A stretch of 20,017 nt of DNA, from IMG/VR virus record IMGVR_UViG_3300031111_000041, positions 1 through 20,017 of that record; one strand, 5' to 3'. The translations under genes and the position numbers were made by a program. Every line of letters starts with the position of its first letter. Positions within the stretch are counted from its first letter, which is position 1. The notes below the pieces were generated by a model. It worked only from the letters and a program-made list of their open reading frames with translations, had not been told where the DNA came from and searched no databases. This stretch comes from a virus. Shown piece after piece: positions 8,952 to 20,017 of the stretch.

Positions 8952-9983
8952 CTACAGCACCGTGGCGGCCACGTAGGCCTCGGGCTCCCAGGGCACCGGC
9001 AAAGGCCGGCTCTCGGCCAGCAGCCACAGCACGCTGGGATCCTTCTCCAGCCAGGACTTGGCGAAGTACTCCTCCATCACGTTGAGCCCGGCGTCCAGGT
9101 CCAGGATCAGACCGAACTCGATGGAGAAGCGGGCCGAGCTGTTGACCAGCACCACCTTGTCCGAGCCCACGATCTTGGTCTTGGAGCCGGCCGCGGTCTC
9201 GTACTCAAAGGGGTACTTGTAGACGTCCAGCCCCTTGTAGGGCCCGATGTACTCGGTCTTGAAGTCCGGCCGCAGCTCGCCCACGATGATGTGGCGCCGG
9301 TCATACTCGGCCTGCACCTTGTCATCGGCCAGGAACTTCTCCGCCGCCCCGGTGCCCAACAGCATCAGGTCCGGCCCGGAGCCGTAGGCCGAGAGGATCA
9401 GGTTGGCCCAGGCCTCGATGTTGGCCGGGATGTCGGCGCTGTCCCCGCCCCACTTGTTGTCCCCGGTGAGGCTGATCTTGTGCTCGGCCGGCAGGCGGTA
9501 ATCCACCTGAAAGGCGATGTTCTCCTGACTCACGGTCAGGGCGCCGGTGGCCAGGGCCTGGGCGCACATCCACTCCACGGTGCGGTCGATGCGCTGCTTC
9601 AGGTCCTTTTGCTCCATGCCCACCTTCTTTTCCTTCCAGGCGTTGATGTCGCCCGAGCCGGTGGCATAGATCTTGGCCCCGGGCCCCCGCTCGGTGAGCA
9701 GGGCCTGGGCGGCCAGGGGCTTCTTGGGCCGCAGGCGGGGAGTCTTGACCGCCCGCTGCTCGCGGCCCAGCTGGCCCACCACCGTGCCGCCCTCGATGGG
9801 CGAGACAAAGGGCACCAGCTTCTGGTTGCCCACGGTGATGTCCACGTCGATGGTGTCGCTGGGGTTGGTGTTGCGCTCTTTGAAGATGAGCTTCTGCAGC
9901 AACCGCGGCGGCACCTTGATCTGGTTGATGGCCGTGGTCAGGGCCCGCCAGTTGAGGAGGCCCAAGCCGAGGGGAGTGTCCAT
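8952..9983 (-). CDS. Major capsid protein, lambda gpE-like (343 residues)
   Basis: The ATG at 9983 has a strong AAAGGAGG ribosome binding site, expected for the most abundant protein. Length and motifs fit the gpE family: an N-terminal arm, 'FKERNTNPSDTIDVDI' near residues 50-65, 'VSPIEGG' and 'KTPRLRPKKPL' near 79-109, a helix 'LKQRIDRTVEWMCAQAL' near 147-163, 'LMLLGTGAAEKFL' in the A-domain region, and a beta-rich C-terminus ('VVLVNSSARFSIEFGLILD'). The protein should form the icosahedral shell with the HK97 fold. It follows a gpD-like decoration gene and a protease-scaffold gene, the standard head order. The C-terminal codons run in the same frame as the next gene, separated by one TAG. 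Confidence 0.92.
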   Translation of the reverse strand: MDTPLGLGLLNWRALTTAINQIKVPPRLLQKLIFKERNTNPSDTIDVDITVGNQKLVPFVSPIEGGTVVGQLGREQRAVKTPRLRPKKPLAAQALLTERGPGAKIYATGSGDINAWKEKKVGMEQKDLKQRIDRTVEWMCAQALATGALTVSQENIAFQVDYRLPAEHKISLTGDNKWGGDSADIPANIEAWANLILSAYGSGPDLMLLGTGAAEKFLADDKVQAEYDRRHIIVGELRPDFKTEYIGPYKGLDVYKYPFEYETAAGSKTKIVGSDKVVLVNSSARFSIEFGLILDLDAGLNVMEEYFAKSWLEKDPSVLWLLAESRPLPVPWEPEAYVAATVL

Positions 9984-10016: not shown

Positions 10017-10667
10017 TTACGCGCCAGTGATGGCCACGGCGTAGAGGCCCAGGCCGGCCAGCCGCTCCAGGGCCCGTACCTTCTGGGCCGCGCTGATGCT
10101 CTCGGGCCAGACCAGGGCCGCGGCGTAGAGCTCGCCGTGCACGATGACCACCGCGGCCTCATCGCCCTCGCTGGCGTCCACCGCCTCGGGCAGCACCGCC
10201 GCCGCCCGGGCCTTGCCGCCCGCGTCGTGGCTGTAGTCCGCGCTGATGGCGGTGTCGTCGTCCGGGGCGGTGTCAAAGGCCAGGCGGCAGTAGCCGCTGG
10301 CGTAATCGATGAAGCCGAGGCCCACCCCGGCGCCGGCCAGGCCGCCCTGACCGTCGTCAGTCATCTCCACCGCCCCGGCGCTGACCGTGGCCTTGATGGT
10401 CACCGAGCCGGGGATCAACCCCGGATTGGCCAACACCACATCAAAGGCGGTGAGCGCCCCGCCGGCGTCGGCCACCAGCTCCTCGTCAGTCACCGCCACC
10501 TCCAGGTCCAGGCTCACGTACTTGCCGTCTCCGTCCTGGCCCAGGACCTGCCCCTTGGCCGGGCTTTCTCCGCTGAGAATGGTGCCCGGCTTGCTGATAA
10601 GGGGATGGCCGCCTTCCAGGGCCACCGGGGTCAGGCTGTCGGATTGAACTCCATAGTCCCTAACCAT
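10017..10667 (-). CDS. Head decoration protein, lambda gpD-like with an inserted domain (216 residues)
   Basis: Residues 1-70 begin with a gpD-family pattern ('GGHPLISKPGTILSGESP', 'KGQVLGQDGDGKYV'). Residues about 150-216 complete it ('AVDASEGDEAAVVIVHGEL', 'ALERLAGLGLYAV'). Between them, about 76-146, lies an extra beta domain ('GSVTIKATVSAGAVEMTDDG', 'GFIDYASGYCRLAFDTAP') of a kind seen in other phage structural proteins. Lambda gpD itself is about 110 residues, so the insert roughly doubles the size. The trimer should clamp capsid three-fold sites, with the insert probably facing outward. The ribosome binding site is GGAGGAG, and the gene sits 26 bases after the protease-scaffold stop and 33 bases before the capsid start. 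Confidence 0.85.
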   Translation of the reverse strand: MVRDYGVQSDSLTPVALEGGHPLISKPGTILSGESPAKGQVLGQDGDGKYVSLDLEVAVTDEELVADAGGALTAFDVVLANPGLIPGSVTIKATVSAGAVEMTDDGQGGLAGAGVGLGFIDYASGYCRLAFDTAPDDDTAISADYSHDAGGKARAAAVLPEAVDASEGDEAAVVIVHGELYAAALVWPESISAAQKVRALERLAGLGLYAVAITGA

Positions 10668-10693: not shown

Positions 10694-11173
10694 TTAGCCG
10701 TCCTGGTTGACCCGGGCGGCCATGCTCTGGCCGGTCTTCTCGGGCTGGTCCTGGCCGTGCTCCTGCTCGGGCGGCTCCTCGCTCTCCAAACTGGAGCGGA
10801 TGGGCACCTCGGTCTTGCAGTTGGGGCAGACCGCGGTGAAGCTCCGGCCCAGCTTGCCCCCGAACTGCTCCACAAAGGCCTCGGCGGTGGCCAGGTCGGC
10901 CGCCTCGATCACCTTCTGCAGGTGCTCGGGCGCCTTCTTGTCTTCCGCGGTGGCCGCGGCCAGGCGCAGCGCCTCCTTGCGCACCGCCTCCAAATGGGCC
11001 TGGCCCACCTCGGCCATCGGCTGCAGCTCAACCACCTGGGCCTGCAGCTGGGTAACGGCCGCCTGCAGGTGATCCACCACCCGCTCGGCGGTCATCTGAT
11101 CCGGGGTAAGCTCCAGGGCCTGGCCCAGGGGAGCCAAGGCCGCCAGGGTCACAATGTTTTTGGCTTCGGCCAT
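10694..11173 (-). CDS. Nested scaffold protein from an internal start (159 residues)
   Basis: Codon 214 of the protease-scaffold gene is an ATG (MAEAKNIVTLAAL) with AAAGGAG exactly 7 bases upstream, a site as good as any in the window. It falls at the join between the protease and the helical scaffold. The product would be mainly coiled coil plus the CPNC segment. Mu I/Z and lambda C/Nu3 use the same design, in which free scaffold is made in excess of the protease fusion. Use of this start is inferred. Confidence 0.75.
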   Translation of the reverse strand: MAEAKNIVTLAALAPLGQALELTPDQMTAERVVDHLQAAVTQLQAQVVELQPMAEVGQAHLEAVRKEALRLAAATAEDKKAPEHLQKVIEAADLATAEAFVEQFGGKLGRSFTAVCPNCKTEVPIRSSLESEEPPEQEHGQDQPEKTGQSMAARVNQDG

Positions 11174-11812
11174 ATCGGCACTCCTTTCATCGGGCTGCCC
11201 TTGGCCGGGCTGGCCCAGGTTTGCATTCATTCCGGGATGGGCCAGGGCGCGGGCCCCGCGATCGGCCCCGGCCCAGACCAGGCTGAGCTCGGGCATCTCA
11301 TCGATCGAGGAGGCGATCCAGCGCACCACCTCTCCCTGGTGCTTCTCGCCCAGCAGGGCGTAGAACTCCGAATCGGTCAGATCCTGGTGGGACATCACGA
11401 ACTCCCCGAACCAGGTGATGGACACCGCCGCCTTGAGGGGAGGATCCGCGGTCATCTGGCGCAGCAGGCCCTGGGGCATCTCCTGCTTGTCCAGGCGCAA
11501 ACGGGCGTTGATGCCCGGCGCCCCCAGGCGAAGCTCATCGTTCCACCAGGTGTCGATCACCGTGCCCACCACCGTCTCCACGTAGTGCCAGTGGTTGAGC
11601 ATCACCGGCATGCCCTTGAGCAGGCCGGTGGCCCCCTTGAGCAGCTCGGCCGGGAACTCGAACCAATGGCCCGGGATCAGGCGGGCGCTGATGGCCCGCA
11701 CGTCCAAAAACAGGAAGTTTTCATCCTCCGACGGCTGATCCATCTCCGCCCGAGCGAAGACGATGGGCTGATCCGCCAGGGTCACCCGGTGTCGCTGCTG
11801 CTGATCGGCCAT
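10694..11812 (-). CDS. Prohead protease with C-terminal scaffold (372 residues)
   Basis: Residues about 30-190 look like an HK97-type (S78/U35-like) prohead protease. 'GMPVMLNHWHYVETVVGTVI' contains the likely catalytic His74, a 'GINARLRLD' strand follows, and 'AVSITWFGE' contains the likely Ser131. Residues 214-340 are a helical, Ala/Glu/Gln-rich scaffold ('DHLQAAVTQLQAQVVELQ'). The C-terminus has a Cys pair (CPNCKTEVPI, about 322-331) and a polar tail. Such proteases cut the scaffold and the capsid arm during maturation and destroy themselves. The ATG at 11812 has a GGAGGA site that directly adjoins the T-tract of a terminator. An internal start makes the scaffold alone. Assignment is by motif spacing, without a search. 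Confidence 0.83.
   Translation of the reverse strand: MADQQQRHRVTLADQPIVFARAEMDQPSEDENFLFLDVRAISARLIPGHWFEFPAELLKGATGLLKGMPVMLNHWHYVETVVGTVIDTWWNDELRLGAPGINARLRLDKQEMPQGLLRQMTADPPLKAAVSITWFGEFVMSHQDLTDSEFYALLGEKHQGEVVRWIASSIDEMPELSLVWAGADRGARALAHPGMNANLGQPGQGQPDERSADMAEAKNIVTLAALAPLGQALELTPDQMTAERVVDHLQAAVTQLQAQVVELQPMAEVGQAHLEAVRKEALRLAAATAEDKKAPEHLQKVIEAADLATAEAFVEQFGGKLGRSFTAVCPNCKTEVPIRSSLESEEPPEQEHGQDQPEKTGQSMAARVNQDG
11181..11187 (-). promoter_or_regulatory. Ribosome binding site AAAGGAG for the nested scaffold
   Basis: AAAGGAG on the minus strand lies 7 bases before the in-frame ATG at 11173, inside the protease-scaffold gene. A good match at the right spacing inside a coding region, exactly at a domain boundary, is unlikely to be accidental. 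Confidence 0.7.
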
Positions 11813-11824
11813 TTGGCTCCTCCC

Positions 11825-11860
11825 AAAAAAAGAAGGCCCAGGGGGTTTACCCCTGGGCCT
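11825..11860 (-). terminator. Intrinsic terminator in the leader of the protease-scaffold gene
   Basis: On the minus strand an 11-bp perfect stem AGGCCCAGGGG / CCCCTGGGCCT (11860-11850 with 11844-11834) with a 5-base loop is followed by TCTTTTTTT. It is the strongest hairpin-plus-T-tract in the window. The T-tract ends a few bases before the GGAGGA site of the gene starting at 11812, so there is no room for a promoter between them. Confidence 0.85.
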
Positions 11861-11927
11861 CTCTGGGCCTCTGTCGAATTAATTTATTTCAGGCGCTCTC
11901 TGGCGCTCAGGCGGCCTGGGCCGCGTT
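11861..11927 (-). promoter_or_regulatory. Candidate promoter/operator gap before the head genes
   Basis: This gap between the Com-like stop and the terminator holds an AT-rich island (AATTAATTTATTTC, 11877-11890), rare in this GC-rich window. Next to it are two 10-bp phased near-repeats (CAGGCGCTCT 11890-11899 and CTGGCGCTCA 11900-11909). A GCGGC/GCCGC inverted repeat lies at 11911-11924. On the minus strand the repeats lie upstream of the AT-rich part, the order expected of an activator-dependent promoter. I see no convincing sigma-70 -35/-10 pair, so this is a candidate only. Confidence 0.35.
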
Positions 11928-12104
11928 TTATATTTGCTTAGCCCCTTCCCTTGGCACATGCCCGTGGTGTGGCCTGCGGGCTGGATAAGGCGGCTTGGGG
12001 CCGAATCTCATCAGCCGGCCGCACTTGGGGCACTTGATCTCCACCCGCCCTCGCCCGTCGGACTCGCCCAGCTTGCGGCGGCAGGTGCACCTGAGATCCT
12101 GCAT
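11928..12104 (-). CDS. Com-like small zinc-finger protein (58 residues)
   Basis: The start at 12104 (MQDLRCTCRRKLGES) shares one base with the stop of the preceding gene (TGATG), so the pair is coupled. The protein matches the Mu Com family: 'LRCxCRRKL', a short variable loop, then 'VEIKCPKCGRLMRF'. Cys6, Cys8, Cys25 and Cys28 are the expected zinc ligands. The first pair is spaced C-x-C, where Mu Com has C-x2-C. Com binds the mom mRNA in Mu and opens its translation start, but no mom-like gene is in this window. Com-like proteins also occur in many prophages without mom. The C-terminal tail is basic (RRPHHGHVPREGAK), which fits RNA binding. The gene ends just before the regulatory gap. Confidence 0.8.
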   Translation of the reverse strand: MQDLRCTCRRKLGESDGRGRVEIKCPKCGRLMRFGPKPPYPARRPHHGHVPREGAKQI

Positions 12105-12433
12105 CAGGCCGCCTCCGGGAGATGCTCTTGGGGATAGTCGCCGTCGGCAATCCGATCCAGCCACCACCACCAATGAGACTCGGGAATCTTTTCCCGCTCC
12201 CGGAGTTCGGCGATCATATCTTCGCGCCAGTAGCCGGCCACCACCTCGGCCATCTCCAGCAGGGTCCGGTCCGCCTGGGCAACTAAGGCCTGCTCCTGCT
12301 CCTCGAGCCGATCCCACTGTTCGGCGATCCGCTCCCGGAGAATGGCCTTGCGTGAAACCGCCTCGGCCTCCAGCAGCTCCGGCGCCAGCCCCTCGGCCAG
12401 CCCGTCGGTGTAGCGCTCTACCGCGTCGTTCAT
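12104..12433 (-). CDS. Acidic 109-residue protein downstream of the portal-MuF fusion, unknown
   Basis: The ATG at 12433 overlaps the stop of the 909-residue gene as ATGA and the stop overlaps the Com-like start. The protein is helical and acidic, with many Glu/Asp over Arg/Lys, including 'QWDRLEEQEQALVAQADRTL' in the middle. The C-terminal part has a striking tryptophan run (HWWWWLDRIADGDYPQEHL). It has no membrane segment, signal peptide or recognised motif. Its tight coupling to a gene ending in a nuclease-toxin-like domain makes it a candidate immunity protein, since many nuclease immunity proteins are small, acidic and encoded directly downstream. It could equally be a head morphogenesis accessory. 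I do not recognise the family. Confidence 0.75.
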   Translation of the reverse strand: MNDAVERYTDGLAEGLAPELLEAEAVSRKAILRERIAEQWDRLEEQEQALVAQADRTLLEMAEVVAGYWREDMIAELREREKIPESHWWWWLDRIADGDYPQEHLPEAA

Positions 12434-15159
12434 GACTCAACCTCTACCCAGCCCCGCGGGGCCAGCCGGGCCTTCTCTTGCGACCAGTCAAAGTCGTATT
12501 TGGCATCCGGGCCGTAGAGTGTCTTCACTCCGGCCGCCCCGGCGCCCACTCGCTGATCCAGGTCAATTATTGCCATACGCCAGTCTTTCTGGCCACCCTT
12601 GACCAAGGCCATCTGCAGGCCGGCGGCGGGATCCATGCGCAACAGCACCCGATCGGGTGAGGCCTGCAGGCTCTTCAGGGCGGCGCGATAGCCCTCCGCA
12701 TCGGCCGCCACCTCCGGATGCACCCTGGCGTGATGCTTCAGGGTCTTGTCATTGCGCCAGGCGCCCTGGGCGGCATCGGTAATGCGATGTGCCTTGGCCT
12801 GTTCAGGCAGGCCTTCCCAGTAGCGCCAGGCTCTTTCCTGGGCCGCGTTGAGCTCCTCGGGCGGCTCCCCCGGCTCAGGCGGCGGATCCATGCTCAGCTT
12901 GAGCCGGGTGCGGCAGCGCACGTGATAGGGAGGCACCAGGTTGCCCCGGGCGGCCAGGCTGTCCACCCCGCCGGCCCGCACGCTCTCCGGCTGCAGGGCG
13001 CCGCCCTTCTTCAGGTGCGCCTCAAACTGATCCGGGGTCAGGCCGGAGAGGTAGTCCACCTCAGCTCGGGCTGCGGCCACTTGGATCTTGCGGCCATGCA
13101 TCTCCCGGCAGATGGAACTGGTGCGGCCGTCCAGGATGGCCCACACCGTGGCCCAGACCGCGCCGGCCTCGGCCAGCTGCTGCACGTTGGCCCAGTTGCG
13201 CAGGCGCTGCACCGTGGTGTCGGTGATGCGGGCGATCTGGCCCGAATCCAGCAGCCTCAACTCCTCATCCAGCTCCGCCCGGAAGGCGGCGATGGCCTCG
13301 GGATCGGTGCGGCCGAAGAGCCCGGCCCCCTTGTCCAGCCACTGCTCCTTGAGCACCTTCATGGCCCGGCGCCGGGCGCCGTCGTTGTCCAGATACTTGC
13401 CGAAGAAGTGCTGATCCAAACGGCCGGAGAAGTTCAAGACCCGCTGCTCGGATCCGCCCCAGGTCCATTCCTTGCGGCCGGCCCCGGCCAGGTCGCTGAG
13501 CAAACGGTACTGGCGGTAGATGGGCTCCACCAGCTGAGTGACCGCCTCCTTGACCCCCGGCGCCGCCCAGCCGGCGCGGTAGGCCTGGGCCAGGGCCGCG
13601 TGCACCTGACTCACGAACTCGGTCTCAGTCAGCTCCGGGCTGGTCGCCAGCAGCTCCTCCACCGTGTCCAGAGCCGTTTCCCGGATGGGCGAGGCCAGGC
13701 CCAGGGCCTCGCCGGTGTAGCGGGCCGCCCGGCCGTCGGCCTCGGCCTGCACCCGGCGCTCGATCTCCTCATCCGGGGGACCGTCCGCCGCCAGGCTCAG
13801 ACGGGGCCGGGAGTAGCCGCCCCGGCCGTCGCTGCTCAGCACCAGGCGCACCAACTGGCCGCCCGCCCCGGCCACAGCCGGCGCGGCCAGCAGGCGCTCG
13901 GCGTCGGCCGCTGACTCATAGCCCAGTTCCTGGGCCGCCTGATCCGGGGTGATGATCCCCTTCTCGGCCTTCTTGATGGCCACGTCCACCCGGGTCTGCT
14001 CCGCGTCGGCCGCCTCGCTGGGCTTGAGCTCGGGCTGGGGATTCCACTGCAGCTGGGGCTCCACCGCCCACAGCCCGGCCAGGGCCAGGGCCAGGCGATA
14101 GGTGCGCTCCAAGCGGCGCTTGATCAGGCGCTGGTACTGGGCCGCATACCTCAAGAGCAACCCATAGACCACCCCGGCGTAGGTCTCGGTGGTGCTGAAG
14201 CTCCGCCCGAACATGGCCGGGTCAATGCCCAGGGAGTTCATCATCAGCTGCTCGATGTTCTGGATGATCTTGCTGACCGGGTGGGCGCCGGTGGACACGT
14301 TCTTGACGTCAAACTCGTGGCTGTCCGGATACACGAACATGCCGTTCTTGTAGGCCTGATCATAGGCCTGGGCCACCCGGTTGAGGTGCTGCTGGGCCCG
14401 GGTCTGGAACTCCTGCTCGGTCTCCCCGGGCCGCCGCTCCGGCGGCTTGACCTTGATGCCCACCAGCCCATAGAGTCCCAGCTTCTTGGCATACCAGCGG
14501 AGGTTGGAGAGAATCTCCTGGAGCAGATCCTCCTGCTCGATCACCGACAGGAAGGGGGGCAGGCCGTAGGGGGGATGGCCCTCCAGGGTGTCCAGGGCAT
14601 AGTAGGCAAAGGTGTGGGGGTTGAGCTCCAGGGGCTCGGCTATGTCCGGCGCCTTCTGGTGCGGGGTCCACTCCCCCTCCCGGAGCTTGAACTTCACCGT
14701 GCTGGCCGGCAGCAGCACCGCCTGGCGCACCCCGGAGAAGTCCGGCTGCAGCACATCCTCGCTGGCCAGGGCCCCGGTCACCGCCAGCTGGCGGGTGTAA
14801 TGGTTGACCAGGCCGTCCACCCCGGCGCTGCGCCGGTACAGGGTGCGAGCCAGATCGCCCAGCAGCTCCTGGGCCTGGGCCGCCTGGCGCTTGGGCCCCT
14901 CCATGATCAGGTCATGGCCGGTGTTCACCGTGCCGGCCAGCAGCTTCACCGCCTGGCTGACAATGGGGCTGTAAAGGCTCAGGCGCTCCAGCAGGCCCAG
15001 CACCTGGGGATCATAGGGCTGCAGGCCCTGGTAAGTGGTCCACAGGCTGCTGACCCAGCCGCTCAGTTCCTCCTTGGGAGGCGCGCTGCTCCGGCCGGTG
15101 GGAGGCAGTTCACTGGCCTTCACCTTGCCGCGGCCTATCTCCAAGCCGAAGATCTTCAT
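12430..15159 (-). CDS. Portal-MuF fusion with a C-terminal nuclease-toxin-like domain (909 residues)
   Basis: Three parts are visible. Residues about 30-420 are a portal protein ('LSLYSPIVSQAVKLLAGTV', the helical 'EQEDLLQEILSNLRWYAKKL', 'MNSLGIDPAMFGRSFSTTET'), which should form the 12-subunit DNA channel. Residues about 480-755 are a Mu gpF-like minor head domain with its hallmark 'LDGRTSSICREMHGR' (676-690) and 'PPYHVRCRTRL' (743-753). Residues about 770-895 look like a nuclease-toxin of the phage barnase/EndoU/colicin E5-D/RelE-like group: 'LKHHARVHPEV' (807-817), 'GYRAALKSLQASPDRVLL' and 'WRMAIIDLDQRV' (860-871). Portal and gpF are separate in Mu. The ATG overlaps the large terminase stop as ATGA. 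Portal and MuF calls are firm. The toxin call is from pattern memory and less sure. Confidence 0.88.
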   Translation of the reverse strand: MKIFGLEIGRGKVKASELPPTGRSSAPPKEELSGWVSSLWTTYQGLQPYDPQVLGLLERLSLYSPIVSQAVKLLAGTVNTGHDLIMEGPKRQAAQAQELLGDLARTLYRRSAGVDGLVNHYTRQLAVTGALASEDVLQPDFSGVRQAVLLPASTVKFKLREGEWTPHQKAPDIAEPLELNPHTFAYYALDTLEGHPPYGLPPFLSVIEQEDLLQEILSNLRWYAKKLGLYGLVGIKVKPPERRPGETEQEFQTRAQQHLNRVAQAYDQAYKNGMFVYPDSHEFDVKNVSTGAHPVSKIIQNIEQLMMNSLGIDPAMFGRSFSTTETYAGVVYGLLLRYAAQYQRLIKRRLERTYRLALALAGLWAVEPQLQWNPQPELKPSEAADAEQTRVDVAIKKAEKGIITPDQAAQELGYESAADAERLLAAPAVAGAGGQLVRLVLSSDGRGGYSRPRLSLAADGPPDEEIERRVQAEADGRAARYTGEALGLASPIRETALDTVEELLATSPELTETEFVSQVHAALAQAYRAGWAAPGVKEAVTQLVEPIYRQYRLLSDLAGAGRKEWTWGGSEQRVLNFSGRLDQHFFGKYLDNDGARRRAMKVLKEQWLDKGAGLFGRTDPEAIAAFRAELDEELRLLDSGQIARITDTTVQRLRNWANVQQLAEAGAVWATVWAILDGRTSSICREMHGRKIQVAAARAEVDYLSGLTPDQFEAHLKKGGALQPESVRAGGVDSLAARGNLVPPYHVRCRTRLKLSMDPPPEPGEPPEELNAAQERAWRYWEGLPEQAKAHRITDAAQGAWRNDKTLKHHARVHPEVAADAEGYRAALKSLQASPDRVLLRMDPAAGLQMALVKGGQKDWRMAIIDLDQRVGAGAAGVKTLYGPDAKYDFDWSQEKARLAPRGWVEVES

Positions 15160-16706
15160 GCCGCGGCCCTCCCGGCGGGCAATACGCCGCTTGGCCAGGA
15201 ACGAAGCCCGGTTTCCATGAGATCCACGCCGCCCTCCACCGCATCCGGCCCGTCGTCATGAGGGAAGTTGGGGTAGTAGCAGAACTGCTCCACCAGCTCC
15301 CGCATGTCTGGAGTGCGGTCCGCCGGGCGAGGAAAGCGCAGCACCCCCCGTTGCACCATTGGGCTCAGGCGCATGATGCGCATTTCCTTGCTCACCCCTG
15401 AATGGGTTATGCCGGTGACCGGGATATAAACACTCTTTTCCTTGGCCAGGCGGGTCAGCTCCTGGCCCACCATCTCCTGGAAGGCGTTGTCCTCACAGCC
15501 GAAGTTGAAGAAGCGGTGCTGGCCGTGCATCACCATGATGTGGTTGTAGACCTGGGGCAGGGGCTCCTTGCGCAGGTAGGCGTCGTTTATCAGCAGATCG
15601 CCGTTGCCCGCCCGGGCAAGGCAGGCCACCGCCCTGAAGTCGGCCGTGGGCCGCCGGCTGATAGAGGGGTCCAGAAAGCCCACCGTGGGCAGCTGCCCCG
15701 GCGGGGCCTCGCCCAGCTCGAAGCCGTGCTTGTCGATCCACTCCCGGGGGAAGGCCGCGTCCTCATCGCTGGGCAGGTTCTGGTGCTCCTTGTTAAAGGC
15801 CCGCTCGCCCATGATCCGCTTGAGCTCCAGCAGGGTCTCCACCGGGAAGCGGGCCGGCCACAGGCTCCAAAAGCCGCCCCCCTGCTTTTCGTTCAGGCCG
15901 CGGTGGATCTTGCGTCGCCAGTTGCAGTAGGGCTCGGCGTCGGAGAGCATGATGGCCAGGGCCGAGCGCAGGGAGATTATGGTCCCCAGAATGAACAAGC
16001 TGCCCCGCACGTCCATGCCCGGCAGGATCTCCTCCAGGACCCAGTTGAGGCGCTTCTCTACCATCTTGGGGTTGACCACGCTCTTGTTGCTCTCCAGATC
16101 GTCCAGCACCACCAGGTCCGGCCGGAACTGGCGGTACTTGATCCCCCGCACCTGCTGGCCCATGCCCCGGGAAAGAATGGCGCAGCCCTCGGAGGTCACA
16201 AAGGCCACCGCCCCTTCCATCACCTCCTCGGCGGTCAGGCTCTGGCCCCAGTCGTATTGCAGCCGCCTATTCCCCTCGAACTCCGCCTTGATGGCCGCCA
16301 CCTGGCTGCTGGCCAAGCCCGCGGTCTCCGAGCCCAGAATGGTGAAACGGCGCTGCTTGGTCACCGTCTGTTGCAGGGGGTAGCCGAAAGACACGTTGGT
16401 GCTCTTGGCATAGCCCCGGGGAGCCGCCTCCACGTAGGGGGTGACCACCTGGTGCTGGGCCGGATCCGGCCGCCACTCCAGATCGGCGATCAGCTCCTGG
16501 TGAAAGGGAGCCGGATCGTCATAGAAGTAATGGGGCAGATAGGTCTTGAAAAAGAAGAAGGGCTCAGTCGCGGCCCGGGCCTTGCGCCGCTCCTTGTCCT
16601 GCTGGGAGCGGTCCTGAAAGGGGCTCACCTGGGCCTCGGCCCAGCGGGTCAGCTCCTGCACCTGGCGGTCGAAGCTGAGCTCGGTTATGTCCGGCCGGGA
16701 GCGCAT
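15156..16706 (-). CDS. terL: Terminase large subunit (516 residues)
   Basis: This is the ATP-driven DNA packaging motor and nuclease. The ATPase has a Walker-A-like 'AAPRGYAKST' (94-103), a Walker B 'LVVLDDLE' (198-205) and the coupling segment 'FILGTII' (238-244). The RNase H-like nuclease has Asp346 in 'GFLDPSIS', Glu405 in 'NFGCEDNAF' and the 'HDDGPDAVEG' motif (483-492) with Asp484/485/488. All key acidic residues are present, so it looks active. The ATG follows the small subunit stop with no spacer (TAGATG). The gene leads into the portal with an ATGA overlap. The order small subunit, large subunit, portal, MuF is that of Mu-like heads. Whether packaging is headful or site-specific cannot be read from the sequence. 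Confidence 0.95.
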   Translation of the reverse strand: MRSRPDITELSFDRQVQELTRWAEAQVSPFQDRSQQDKERRKARAATEPFFFFKTYLPHYFYDDPAPFHQELIADLEWRPDPAQHQVVTPYVEAAPRGYAKSTNVSFGYPLQQTVTKQRRFTILGSETAGLASSQVAAIKAEFEGNRRLQYDWGQSLTAEEVMEGAVAFVTSEGCAILSRGMGQQVRGIKYRQFRPDLVVLDDLESNKSVVNPKMVEKRLNWVLEEILPGMDVRGSLFILGTIISLRSALAIMLSDAEPYCNWRRKIHRGLNEKQGGGFWSLWPARFPVETLLELKRIMGERAFNKEHQNLPSDEDAAFPREWIDKHGFELGEAPPGQLPTVGFLDPSISRRPTADFRAVACLARAGNGDLLINDAYLRKEPLPQVYNHIMVMHGQHRFFNFGCEDNAFQEMVGQELTRLAKEKSVYIPVTGITHSGVSKEMRIMRLSPMVQRGVLRFPRPADRTPDMRELVEQFCYYPNFPHDDGPDAVEGGVDLMETGLRSWPSGVLPAGRAAA

Positions 16707-17847: not shown

Positions 17848-18401
17848 CGCCCTCCTCCGGGTCGAGTCAAACGGTCAAAGGTGCAATGGACGCGGGCCAC
17901 GTAGAGCAGGGCCGCCCGGCCGTCCGGGTTTGCCCCGCCGGCCTTGCGGCACTTGGGATGCTCCAGGTAAGGACCGGCCACCGCCCAGCGCTGCCACAGG
18001 CCGGCTTCATTCCGGCTGGCCACCCCGCAGTCGGCCCGGGCCAGCTTCAGGGCCCGGTTGATCCAGTCGCGGCCGCAGTTATAGGCGGCCAGGGCGAAGC
18101 TCAGGCGCTCCGAAGAGAGAACTTCCGGGAAGCAGTCCCACTGCTCCTTGAGATAGCGGAGGCCGGCGGTCAGGTTTTCCCGGGGCAGGAGCAGCTGCGC
18201 GGCCGAGAAGCCCAAACCCGCCCCGGTGGCCGGCATCAGCTGCATCAGGCCCAGGGCGCCAGCCCCGGAGCGGGCAGTTACTTCGCCTCCGCTCTCCACC
18301 ACCACCTGAGCCTCCAGGAGCCGCCCGTTGTAGCCGGGCCATTCCTTGGCAGCTACGTCGTAGATCAGGCCGCGCAGCCAGTCTGGGAGGCTTGGAGGCA
18401 T
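17844..18401 (-). CDS. Lytic transglycosylase, SLT-type endolysin (185 residues)
   Basis: The protein cleaves peptidoglycan glycan strands. I placed the start at the ATG at 18401, four bases after the membrane-protein stop; the frame is open further to 18482, but that part is the shadow of the upstream gene. The SLT fold shows 'AQVVVESGGEVTA' with the catalytic Glu36, then 'GALGLMQLMPATG' (48-60) and 'FALAAYNCGRDWI' (102-114, the family's AYNAG motif). All hallmarks are present, so it should be active. There is no signal peptide, so it needs a holin. Cys residues at several places are unusual for a periplasmic enzyme. It could also act as a virion-associated enzyme, but its place among membrane proteins favours lysis. 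Confidence 0.88.
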   Translation of the reverse strand: MPPSLPDWLRGLIYDVAAKEWPGYNGRLLEAQVVVESGGEVTARSGAGALGLMQLMPATGAGLGFSAAQLLLPRENLTAGLRYLKEQWDCFPEVLSSERLSFALAAYNCGRDWINRALKLARADCGVASRNEAGLWQRWAVAGPYLEHPKCRKAGGANPDGRAALLYVARVHCTFDRLTRPGGGR

Positions 18402-19297: not shown

Positions 19298-19888
19298 TTA
19301 CTCGATCAAAAGCCAGGTGCGAACTTCCCACCCGTGCTTAATGCACCAATCGTCCATCTCCTCAGGCATGGGCACGCAGGGCTCGCGGCCCATGAAGTCG
19401 GGCATCTCCAGGCGCTCGATTTTGTACGCCCCCTGAGAGCAGTCATTTTCATCGTCCCTGGCCACCTTCTCGGCCAGCCGGTCAATCCCCAGTGTCGCCT
19501 CCATCAGGTGGGCGCCGATTACCAGCCAGGCATACTTTTGCAGCCGAATCAGGCTCTCGACACAAAGGTGATCCCGCTGGGCCAGGGTGTAGCCGGGCCA
19601 GCAGTAGGAGCGCACCATGTAGCCGGTGTAGTCTTTCAGCGAACGGAGCTCTAGTTCAGCTTGTTGGTCGATGACCAGCCCGCGGCCCAGATAGCGCATG
19701 ATGTGGCTGACGTCTGCCTCGCGGCCCAGAATGGCCGACTGGCTGGCCAAAATCCCCCCGCTGATCAGGCCATCGACCTTGGCCGTGCCGATCAGGTTCG
19801 CCCGGGTGAAACCGGGGAAGTGGCCCTTGGCCAGGTCATGAAAGCTCACCTGTACCGGCTCGAGTATTTGCAGGGGGTTCTCGACCAT
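19298..19888 (-). CDS. Unrecognised 196-residue protein upstream of the lysis genes
   Basis: The ATG at 19888 lies 13 bases after the T-tract of a terminator. The ribosome binding site is weak (AGAGACGG). The protein looks real: mixed hydrophobic and charged, low-repeat sequence with 'SFHDLAKGHFPGFTRANLIG', 'HIMRYLGRGLVIDQQAELEL', 'MVRSYCWPGYTLAQRDHLC' and 'MDDWCIKHGWEVRTWLLI'. It is aromatic and Cys/Trp-bearing, with no membrane segment, signal peptide or helix-turn-helix I can support. In Mu-like phages a late activator (Mor/C family) often sits just upstream of lysis genes, but I do not see that fold here. It ends 16 bases before the membrane-protein start. I leave its function open. Confidence 0.65.
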   Translation of the reverse strand: MVENPLQILEPVQVSFHDLAKGHFPGFTRANLIGTAKVDGLISGGILASQSAILGREADVSHIMRYLGRGLVIDQQAELELRSLKDYTGYMVRSYCWPGYTLAQRDHLCVESLIRLQKYAWLVIGAHLMEATLGIDRLAEKVARDDENDCSQGAYKIERLEMPDFMGREPCVPMPEEMDDWCIKHGWEVRTWLLIE

Positions 19889-19901: not shown

Positions 19902-19944
19902 AAAAAGAGCCCGGGAGCCCACCTTACCCAAGAGGGTCCCGGGC
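19902..19944 (-). terminator. Intrinsic terminator before the 196-residue gene
   Basis: On the minus strand GCCCGGGA (19944-19937) pairs perfectly with TCCCGGGC (19916-19909), with two further weak outer pairs, then CTTTTT. An inner ACCC/GGGT hairpin (TCTT loop) can form in the 20-base loop. It would end transcription arriving from further upstream, but it also lies directly before the start codon at 19888. Confidence 0.75.
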
Positions 19945-20017
19945 CCAGGGAGATAAGGCTCGGATCAGGGTGTGGATTCGAGGGTGCGAGCCTAAGACGG
20001 GTTTAAGATATCAAGGG
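19945..20017. other. Right edge, no gene seen
   Basis: This stretch holds no reading frame I can support. The minus strand begins with TTGATATCTTAAAC, which has some resemblance to a -35 or -10 element, but the partner hexamer at proper spacing is missing. It probably belongs to the 3' flank of an upstream gene or to the leader of the late operon. Confidence 0.4.

Follow-up and report, generated by a model that had tools for sequence, protein, structure and literature searches.

A tandem Com-type hairpin element that overlaps a terminator at the start of a phage head operon: a candidate protein-operated attenuator

Introduction

Protein-stabilised antiterminators are a known kind of system. 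In the BglG/LicT/SacY systems with RAT, a protein-binding hairpin overlaps a terminator and excludes it. Lambda Q and the HK022 put RNA control the entry of polymerase into late genes, and they do so by modifying RNA polymerase.

At the com-mom locus of phage Mu, the element lies in the 3′ end of com, with the target hairpin beside a translation inhibition structure, and Com is described as a translational activator (PMC6483171, in excerpt). According to the same excerpt, in vitro selection with the Com protein of H. sputorum led to GAG(N)2CC, mostly present twice, and the sequence bound by Com is CC(N)2-3GAG, presented in the loop of a hairpin with a closing C-G pair. Studies of Com have so far dealt with its activation of the translation of a single DNA-modification gene. 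Com and its RNA motif are known parts, as are terminators between late operons. In the open-access literature, including PMC4461284 and PMC4378225 (both in excerpt), our searches brought up no description of a head operon under the control of Com, nor of a Com-type antiterminator/terminator switch.

Here we describe a stretch of 20,017 nucleotides from a viral record (the window), in which a Com-like gene, tandem hairpins of Com type and a predicted terminator lie directly before the gene for a head maturation protease.

Results and Discussion

Gene order and the terminator before the protease gene

The recognised head and tail genes of the window are all on the minus strand, in the order terminase subunits, portal/F-like fusion, a 109-aa ORF, a Com-like gene, protease, decoration, major capsid and tail. 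In the direction of transcription, the features are:

15156-16706, minus strand: large terminase (phrog_38)
12430-15159, minus strand: portal/F-like fusion (phrog_3753; PF04233 at E 3.8e-4, under its cut-off)
12104..12433, minus strand: 109-aa ORF between the portal/F-like and Com-like genes, with no Pfam or PHROGs family at E 0.001
11928..12104, minus strand: Com-like zinc-ribbon gene, 58 aa (phrog_6417, phrog_13819; PF10122 under its cut-off)
11926..11935, minus strand: A/T run at the com stop, weak candidate -10 element (best sigma-70-like score 7 of 12)
11892..11908, minus strand: hairpin H1, GAGCGCCAGAGAGCGCC, 4-bp stem 11906-11893, loop CAGAGA; strict motif, paired
11877..11889, minus strand: all-A/T spacer between H1 and H2, 13 nt, the longest A/T run of the window
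11855..11871, minus strand: hairpin H2, GAGGCCCAGAGAGGCCC, 4-bp stem 11869-11856, loop CAGAGA; strict motif, paired; proposed antiterminator
11833..11861, minus strand: terminator hairpin, 12-bp stem with 9 G-C pairs, loop UAAAC, -24 to -26 kcal/mol
11825..11831, minus strand: U7 tract of the terminator
11817..11824, minus strand: Shine-Dalgarno sequence, GGGAGGAG
10694..11812, minus strand: head maturation protease gene, which opens the head block (phrog_8158, E 2.6e-37)
10017-10667, minus strand: head decoration gene
8952-9983, minus strand: major capsid gene (PF02924 and PF03864 support the decoration and capsid pair)

The viral contigs hold no close relative of the protease or of the portal, and one of Com when it is searched alone; terminase and capsid relatives were uninformative, the best capsid relative (L008) having, by eye, another type of protease.

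Between com and the protease ATG lie 115 non-coding nt, the leader. A sequence-only reading had placed a hairpin and T-tract at 11813-11860, about 12 bases before the start codon. Both are real, the span is correct, and the distance from the U-tract to the ATG (11812, minus strand) measures 12 nt; the strand and the upstream leader, to 11927, are additions of the present analysis. The G-C-rich stem is followed at once by the U-tract, as in intrinsic terminators, so that termination is predicted at this site. The hairpin 11861-11833 has the top score in a terminator scan of the window, in which the count of candidates (14) is close to the shuffle mean (13.6), so the count alone is no proof. A d'Aubenton-Carafa-type score d, as coded for this analysis, is above zero at only two sites on both strands of the window: it reaches 43.3 at this hairpin and 19.1 at a site at 19906. 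The scorer is strict, as it misses the TransTermHP-annotated terminator before protease I of Mu. Folding of 11937-11790 gives z = -3.28, with equal stability in 1 of 200 shuffles.

Because only 12 nt separate the U-tract from the ATG, a promoter for the head genes must lie 5′ of the terminator or inside it, and any transcript that starts 5′ of the terminator must pass it. Transcripts may start inside the leader. The window has only two A/T runs of at least 9, both in the leader or at its edge, and neither a promoter scan of the window, which was at shuffle level, nor a sigma-70-like scoring, with a best value of 7 of 12, gave a convincing promoter.

Two hairpins of Com type in the leader

H1 consists of GAGCGCC twice around AGA and H2 of GAGGCCC twice around AGA; the loops are identical and the stems differ. 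Both fit GAG(N)2CC-(N)2-3-GAG(N)2CC, and both present CC(N)2-3GAG in a loop with a closing C-G pair. On both strands of the whole window the paired full motif occurs exactly twice, each time in the leader, while shuffles of the minus strand (n=300) hold a mean of 0.04. When the leader was shuffled 20,000 times with its dinucleotides preserved, 16 of the shuffles contained at least one motif and none contained two. Since H1 and H2 agree with Com-target RNA in both the loop and its flanks, we infer from these sequence features that a Com-type protein may bind here.

The candidate for that protein is encoded next door. The ATG of the Com-like gene overlaps the stop of the 109-aa ORF by one base (TGATG), and its 58-aa product matches phrog_6417 (E 1.1e-6) and phrog_13819, gpCom (E 6.9e-4), and falls short of the cut-off of PF10122, Zn_ribbon_Com (21.1 vs 22.9 bits, E 2.1e-4). 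Its first knuckle is C-x1-C and its second C-x2-C, and so it lacks the two CxxC pairs; the first knuckle is C-x2-C in all of the best 80 of 181 Com loci described below, from which the window differs. The altered knuckle and the missed Pfam cut-off would count against a role of this protein as an antiterminator.

The hairpin element in other Com loci

With a query profile built from five Com proteins, including that of the window, we obtained 181 confirmed relatives in viral contigs, of which the best 80 were used; these are partly redundant, as they contain 65 distinct element regions. In 74 of these best 80 of 181 loci there is a hairpin of this type 95-160 nt 3′ of the com start, and in 47 there are two, spaced by 22 nt in 44 cases. 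The stem is exactly 4 bp in 121/121, and the same hairpin is found elsewhere in those loci 60 times in 391,659 positions. The com hairpin of Mu, the positive control, was recovered at +112. The strict double motif is rarer than the hairpin, with 45/80 loci having it and 4/80 having it twice; 46 of its 49 copies are paired, and elsewhere in the same loci it occurs once in 396,859 bases. In the 47 loci with two hairpins (among the records L059-L138), the pair sits at the 3′ end of com, with 4-bp stems and a spacing of about 22 nt. The assignment of methylase-type neighbours to com rests on the annotated AP3, Smp131 and Mu mom, together with a reading of protein starts. In none of the best 80 of 181 loci does a terminator follow the com start at a distance of 90-260 nt, which indicates that the terminator goes with the head-gene version of the element.

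Covariation was examined in 21 distinct strict elements and covers the inner two pairs, as the outer two are fixed by the way in which elements were picked. At the inner pairs 96.4% of cells are paired (81.9% in shuffles) and 13 cells are changed on both sides (4.6 in shuffles), and none of 500 shuffles matched either measure; two other measures on the same elements, pairs with a double change and further pair types, are not above shuffles. A covariance model of the 21 Com-locus elements, none of them from the window, was searched against 31 sources (258 kb) and ranks H1 of the window second (24.1 bits, E 9.3e-4), after the Com element of AP3 itself. H1 of L161 and H1 of L150, two phages described below, follow at E 0.0063 and E 0.032. 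Two results of this search count against the identification: H2 of the window is not listed at E 5, and an unexplained match in L206 (E 0.063) comes close to H1 of L150. Rfam gave no match at the gathering threshold in four Com loci. The tandem element, frequent in the examined Com loci, can itself be searched for as an RNA family.

Overlap of H2 with the terminator

H2 and the terminator are mutually exclusive. The 3′ arm of H2 (11859-11856) lies wholly within the 5′ arm of the terminator (11860-11850), at the base of that arm, and the two structures therefore cannot coexist. H2 alone has -5.6 kcal/mol, vs -24.3 kcal/mol for the terminator. When H2 is held, the terminator keeps the six pairs of CAGGGG/CCCCUG, which leave a gap of four bases to the first U and of seven to the U7 tract. 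In folds of the growing transcript, the RNA that ends at 11856 has H1 and H2, and the RNA that ends at 11834 has the terminator. The shared arm and the order of folding together make up the anatomy of a terminator/antiterminator pair, with a hairpin of protein-binding type as the antiterminator. In this the window resembles BglG/RAT, from which it differs in the protein family, in the hairpin, in having tandem 4-bp hairpins and in having no link to sugar transport.

We consider it reasonably likely that the leader is a protein-operated attenuator, in which a Com-like protein, by holding H2, would keep the terminator from forming and open the head operon. Without Com, RNA polymerase would make H1 and the short H2 first; when the 3′ arm of the terminator emerged, the far more stable terminator would take over the GGCC of H2, and transcription would stop at the U-tract. 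With a Com-like protein on the loops of H1 and H2 (C[CNNNGA]G), H2 would be held and the terminator would be left without its lower pairs beside the U-tract; transcription would then continue into the protease, decoration and capsid genes. As Com would be made from the upstream transcript, expression of the packaging genes would license that of the head genes. Such a system would be a late-gene checkpoint that, unlike lambda Q, N or the HK022 put RNA, switches local RNA structure, and it would explain why a strong terminator stands 12 nt before an essential gene. With one small protein and a 115-nt RNA, the system is small enough for direct testing.

The sequence-only reading had preferred attenuation or antitermination to a plain end of operon, a preference that we share because the 5′ arm of the terminator is common to a Com-type hairpin and because the same layout precedes the head protease genes of three unrelated phages (below). 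Its suggestion of a Q- or Nun-like factor found no support within the window, and the candidate is instead the Com-like RNA-binding protein encoded next door. Nor did we find support for its proposal that the site sets the ratio of packaging to structural genes.

Like Mu com-mom, the window has a Com-like gene directly upstream, loops of the form C[CNNNGA]G and structured RNA close to where the following gene begins. Unlike in Mu com-mom, the target is the head operon, there are two full motifs, the terminator 5′ arm is common to H2, and the element is in a non-coding leader rather than in the 3′ end of com. Nor is this a com-mom/methylase operon, as the downstream gene is the protease (phrog_8158) and not a DNA-modification gene. 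The resemblance nevertheless raises the question of whether the switch is translational, with a hairpin masking the ribosome site of the protease gene, Com opening it and termination being of minor importance. This would agree with the action of Mu Com as a translational activator (PMC6483171, in excerpt) and with the unconstrained fold, where the loop region CCCAGA pairs with the U-tract and with the GGG of the Shine-Dalgarno sequence, and the latter is unpaired to only 0.23, as compared with 0.54 when H1 alone is held. However, with H2 held the Shine-Dalgarno sequence is still paired (unpaired 0.15), now to the freed GGCCUUC (-9.1 kcal/mol alone). Holding H2 would thus not be expected to raise translation, which counts against the attenuator reading as well as against a translational switch. 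That the Com proteins characterised so far work at the level of translation, and not of termination, also speaks against an attenuator. Simple unmasking of the ribosome site by H2 is not borne out by folding. The strong U-tract also points to transcription, and a terminator is present in all four head-gene versions of the element vs none of the best 80 of 181 Com loci. A mainly translational switch is in our view unlikely, if the best placed of the alternatives; a translational or mixed mechanism is possible.

Recurrence before head protease genes of other phages

Searching viral contigs with a DNA pattern of the tandem element yielded 64 loci. Our own profile finds a Com gene upstream in 41 and none in 23, and it can miss: one of the latter 23 loci is in a record (L151) that holds Com by phrog_6417. 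Several others without a profile match resemble, by eye, repeat-rich coding sequence. Both hairpins are paired in 39 of the 64 loci, and in five a terminator lies no more than 90 nt from where H2 starts. These five represent three phages: L150, L143/L144, which share 5 kb at 99.8% identity, and L161/L177, which show no difference in 10,959 bases.

In the window, L150, L177 and L143 alike, the H2 arm overlaps the terminator arm by 4/4 nt. The gene after the terminator is a head protease in L150 (phrog_976, PF10123) and in L143 (phrog_328, PF10123); in L177 it has a weak head protease match (phrog_80, E 0.0024) and no Pfam family. In all three phages a major head gene lies no more than two genes further downstream, and minor-head/head-morphogenesis genes lie upstream, together with a connector-type gene (phrog_5) in L177; at the corresponding place, a 149-aa ORF in L143 and a 73-aa ORF in L150 match no family. 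L150 and L161 each contain the strict paired motif exactly twice in 39.6 kb, both times at the protease junction. The four proteases (window, L150, L143 and L161/L177) show no significant blastp match to one another and the contigs no blastn match, while tblastx of the window against L161 gives four short matches only (E 0.001).

The order in L143 is that of the window: a Com-like ORF of 105 aa (own profile E 9e-8; PF10122 only at E 0.017, no PHROG), a promoter-like stretch, H1, H2, the terminator and the protease. The sigma-70-like promoter before H1, TTGACA-18-GATAAT, scores 11 of 12 and makes L143 the only one of the four head-gene versions with a good promoter, which is a point against the attenuator reading; a second promoter-like sequence, TTGACA-17-TAATAT, can also be read. 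Against the involvement of Com, PF10122 and phrog_6417 recognise no Com in the records of L150, L161 and L177, which may be incomplete, and our own profile reaches at best E 0.027 in L150 and E 0.042 in L161. L177 (2942-3238), like L161, encodes upstream of the element a 98-aa protein with two CxxC pairs, a possible Com substitute.

Mu-type phages and portal/protease relatives

In the record of Mu, a predicted terminator (17908-17953) and a late promoter (17977-18043) precede the start of the protease gene (18056), giving the order G, terminator, late promoter PI, protease I. The window has a predicted terminator at the same place in the gene order, and its hairpin could likewise be a plain operon boundary that ends the packaging transcript, with a separate promoter driving the head genes. 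Such a promoter would suit the two long A/T runs, the only ones in the window, that lie in the leader or at its edge. Among 16 annotated Mu-type phages, moreover, a terminator without Com hairpins precedes the protease gene by 33-52 nt in three: TJ1 (L208), RcapMu (L217) and RR1-B (L221), a count that excludes Mu itself because the scorer misses its terminator. In Mu, however, the promoter comes after the terminator and there are no tandem hairpins, whereas in the window only 12 nt lie between the terminator and the protease, which puts any promoter before or in the terminator, and the tandem Com hairpins with their terminator overlap are left unexplained. A plain boundary of this kind thus seems improbable, somewhat more so than a translational switch. 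Against the attenuator reading, the hairpins were found in none of the 16 stretches scanned before the protease gene; for Komp the protease start was estimated from a tblastn match, and for D3112 the scan covered only the stretch after the last small ORF, while a further scan of the whole gap before its protease showed neither the motif nor a terminator.

The 109-aa ORF, com and the terminator may alternatively be an inserted accessory cassette, a moron, past which the late transcript proceeds by general antitermination. Morons carry a promoter and a terminator (PMC4378225, in excerpt). In 30 of 32 portal/protease relatives a long ORF ends within 15 nt of the protease start, so the cassette of the window sits between genes that are adjacent in those relatives, and in none of the 32 do the 130 nt that precede the protease contain a terminator or a strict motif, a result that also counts in favour of the attenuator reading. 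Conservation of the hairpin among these relatives was accordingly rejected. The same slot in D3112 (L222:3628-4275) holds AcrF2 and two further ORFs. A moron does not, on the other hand, account for the fact that terminator and Com hairpin overlap in four unrelated phages, in two of which no Com gene could be recognised, and we rate it slightly lower again than a plain boundary. That the element is a captured com-mom relic, inert and next to an unrelated terminator by chance, is very improbable: the altered zinc knuckle and a protease downstream in place of a DNA-modification gene would fit, but 0/20,000 shuffles have two motifs, and identical loops stand on different, intact stems in four lineages.

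A wider reading, which we put forward tentatively as plausible but less secure than the attenuator itself, is that Com zinc ribbons and tandem GAGNNCC hairpins form a general RNA-switch module of phages. At DNA-modification genes the module would act on translation. Fused to an overlapping terminator, it would have come, on several independent occasions, to stand at the entrance of head operons, where Com, or an unrelated zinc-ribbon substitute, would be the antiterminator that orders late expression.

Other observations

A second site in the window with d > 0 (d 19.1), 19943-19888 on the minus strand, lies directly 5′ of a start codon (ORF 19298-19888) and has no strict Com motif in the motif scan of the window. 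The only Rfam match in the window, a weak one to anti-hemB (19902-19964, E 0.26), was discarded.

The 109-aa ORF may be an accessory gene, and the slot before the D3112 protease is likewise occupied by accessory genes (AcrF2 and two ORFs). In KS10 (L220:850-1248), the gene immediately in front of the protease gene is annotated as a late transcriptional activator (Mor). The window protease (10694-11812) has, by eye, a C-terminal scaffold-like stretch with a CPNC motif, to which CNNC of the related protein in L015 aligns, possibly as a small metal site.
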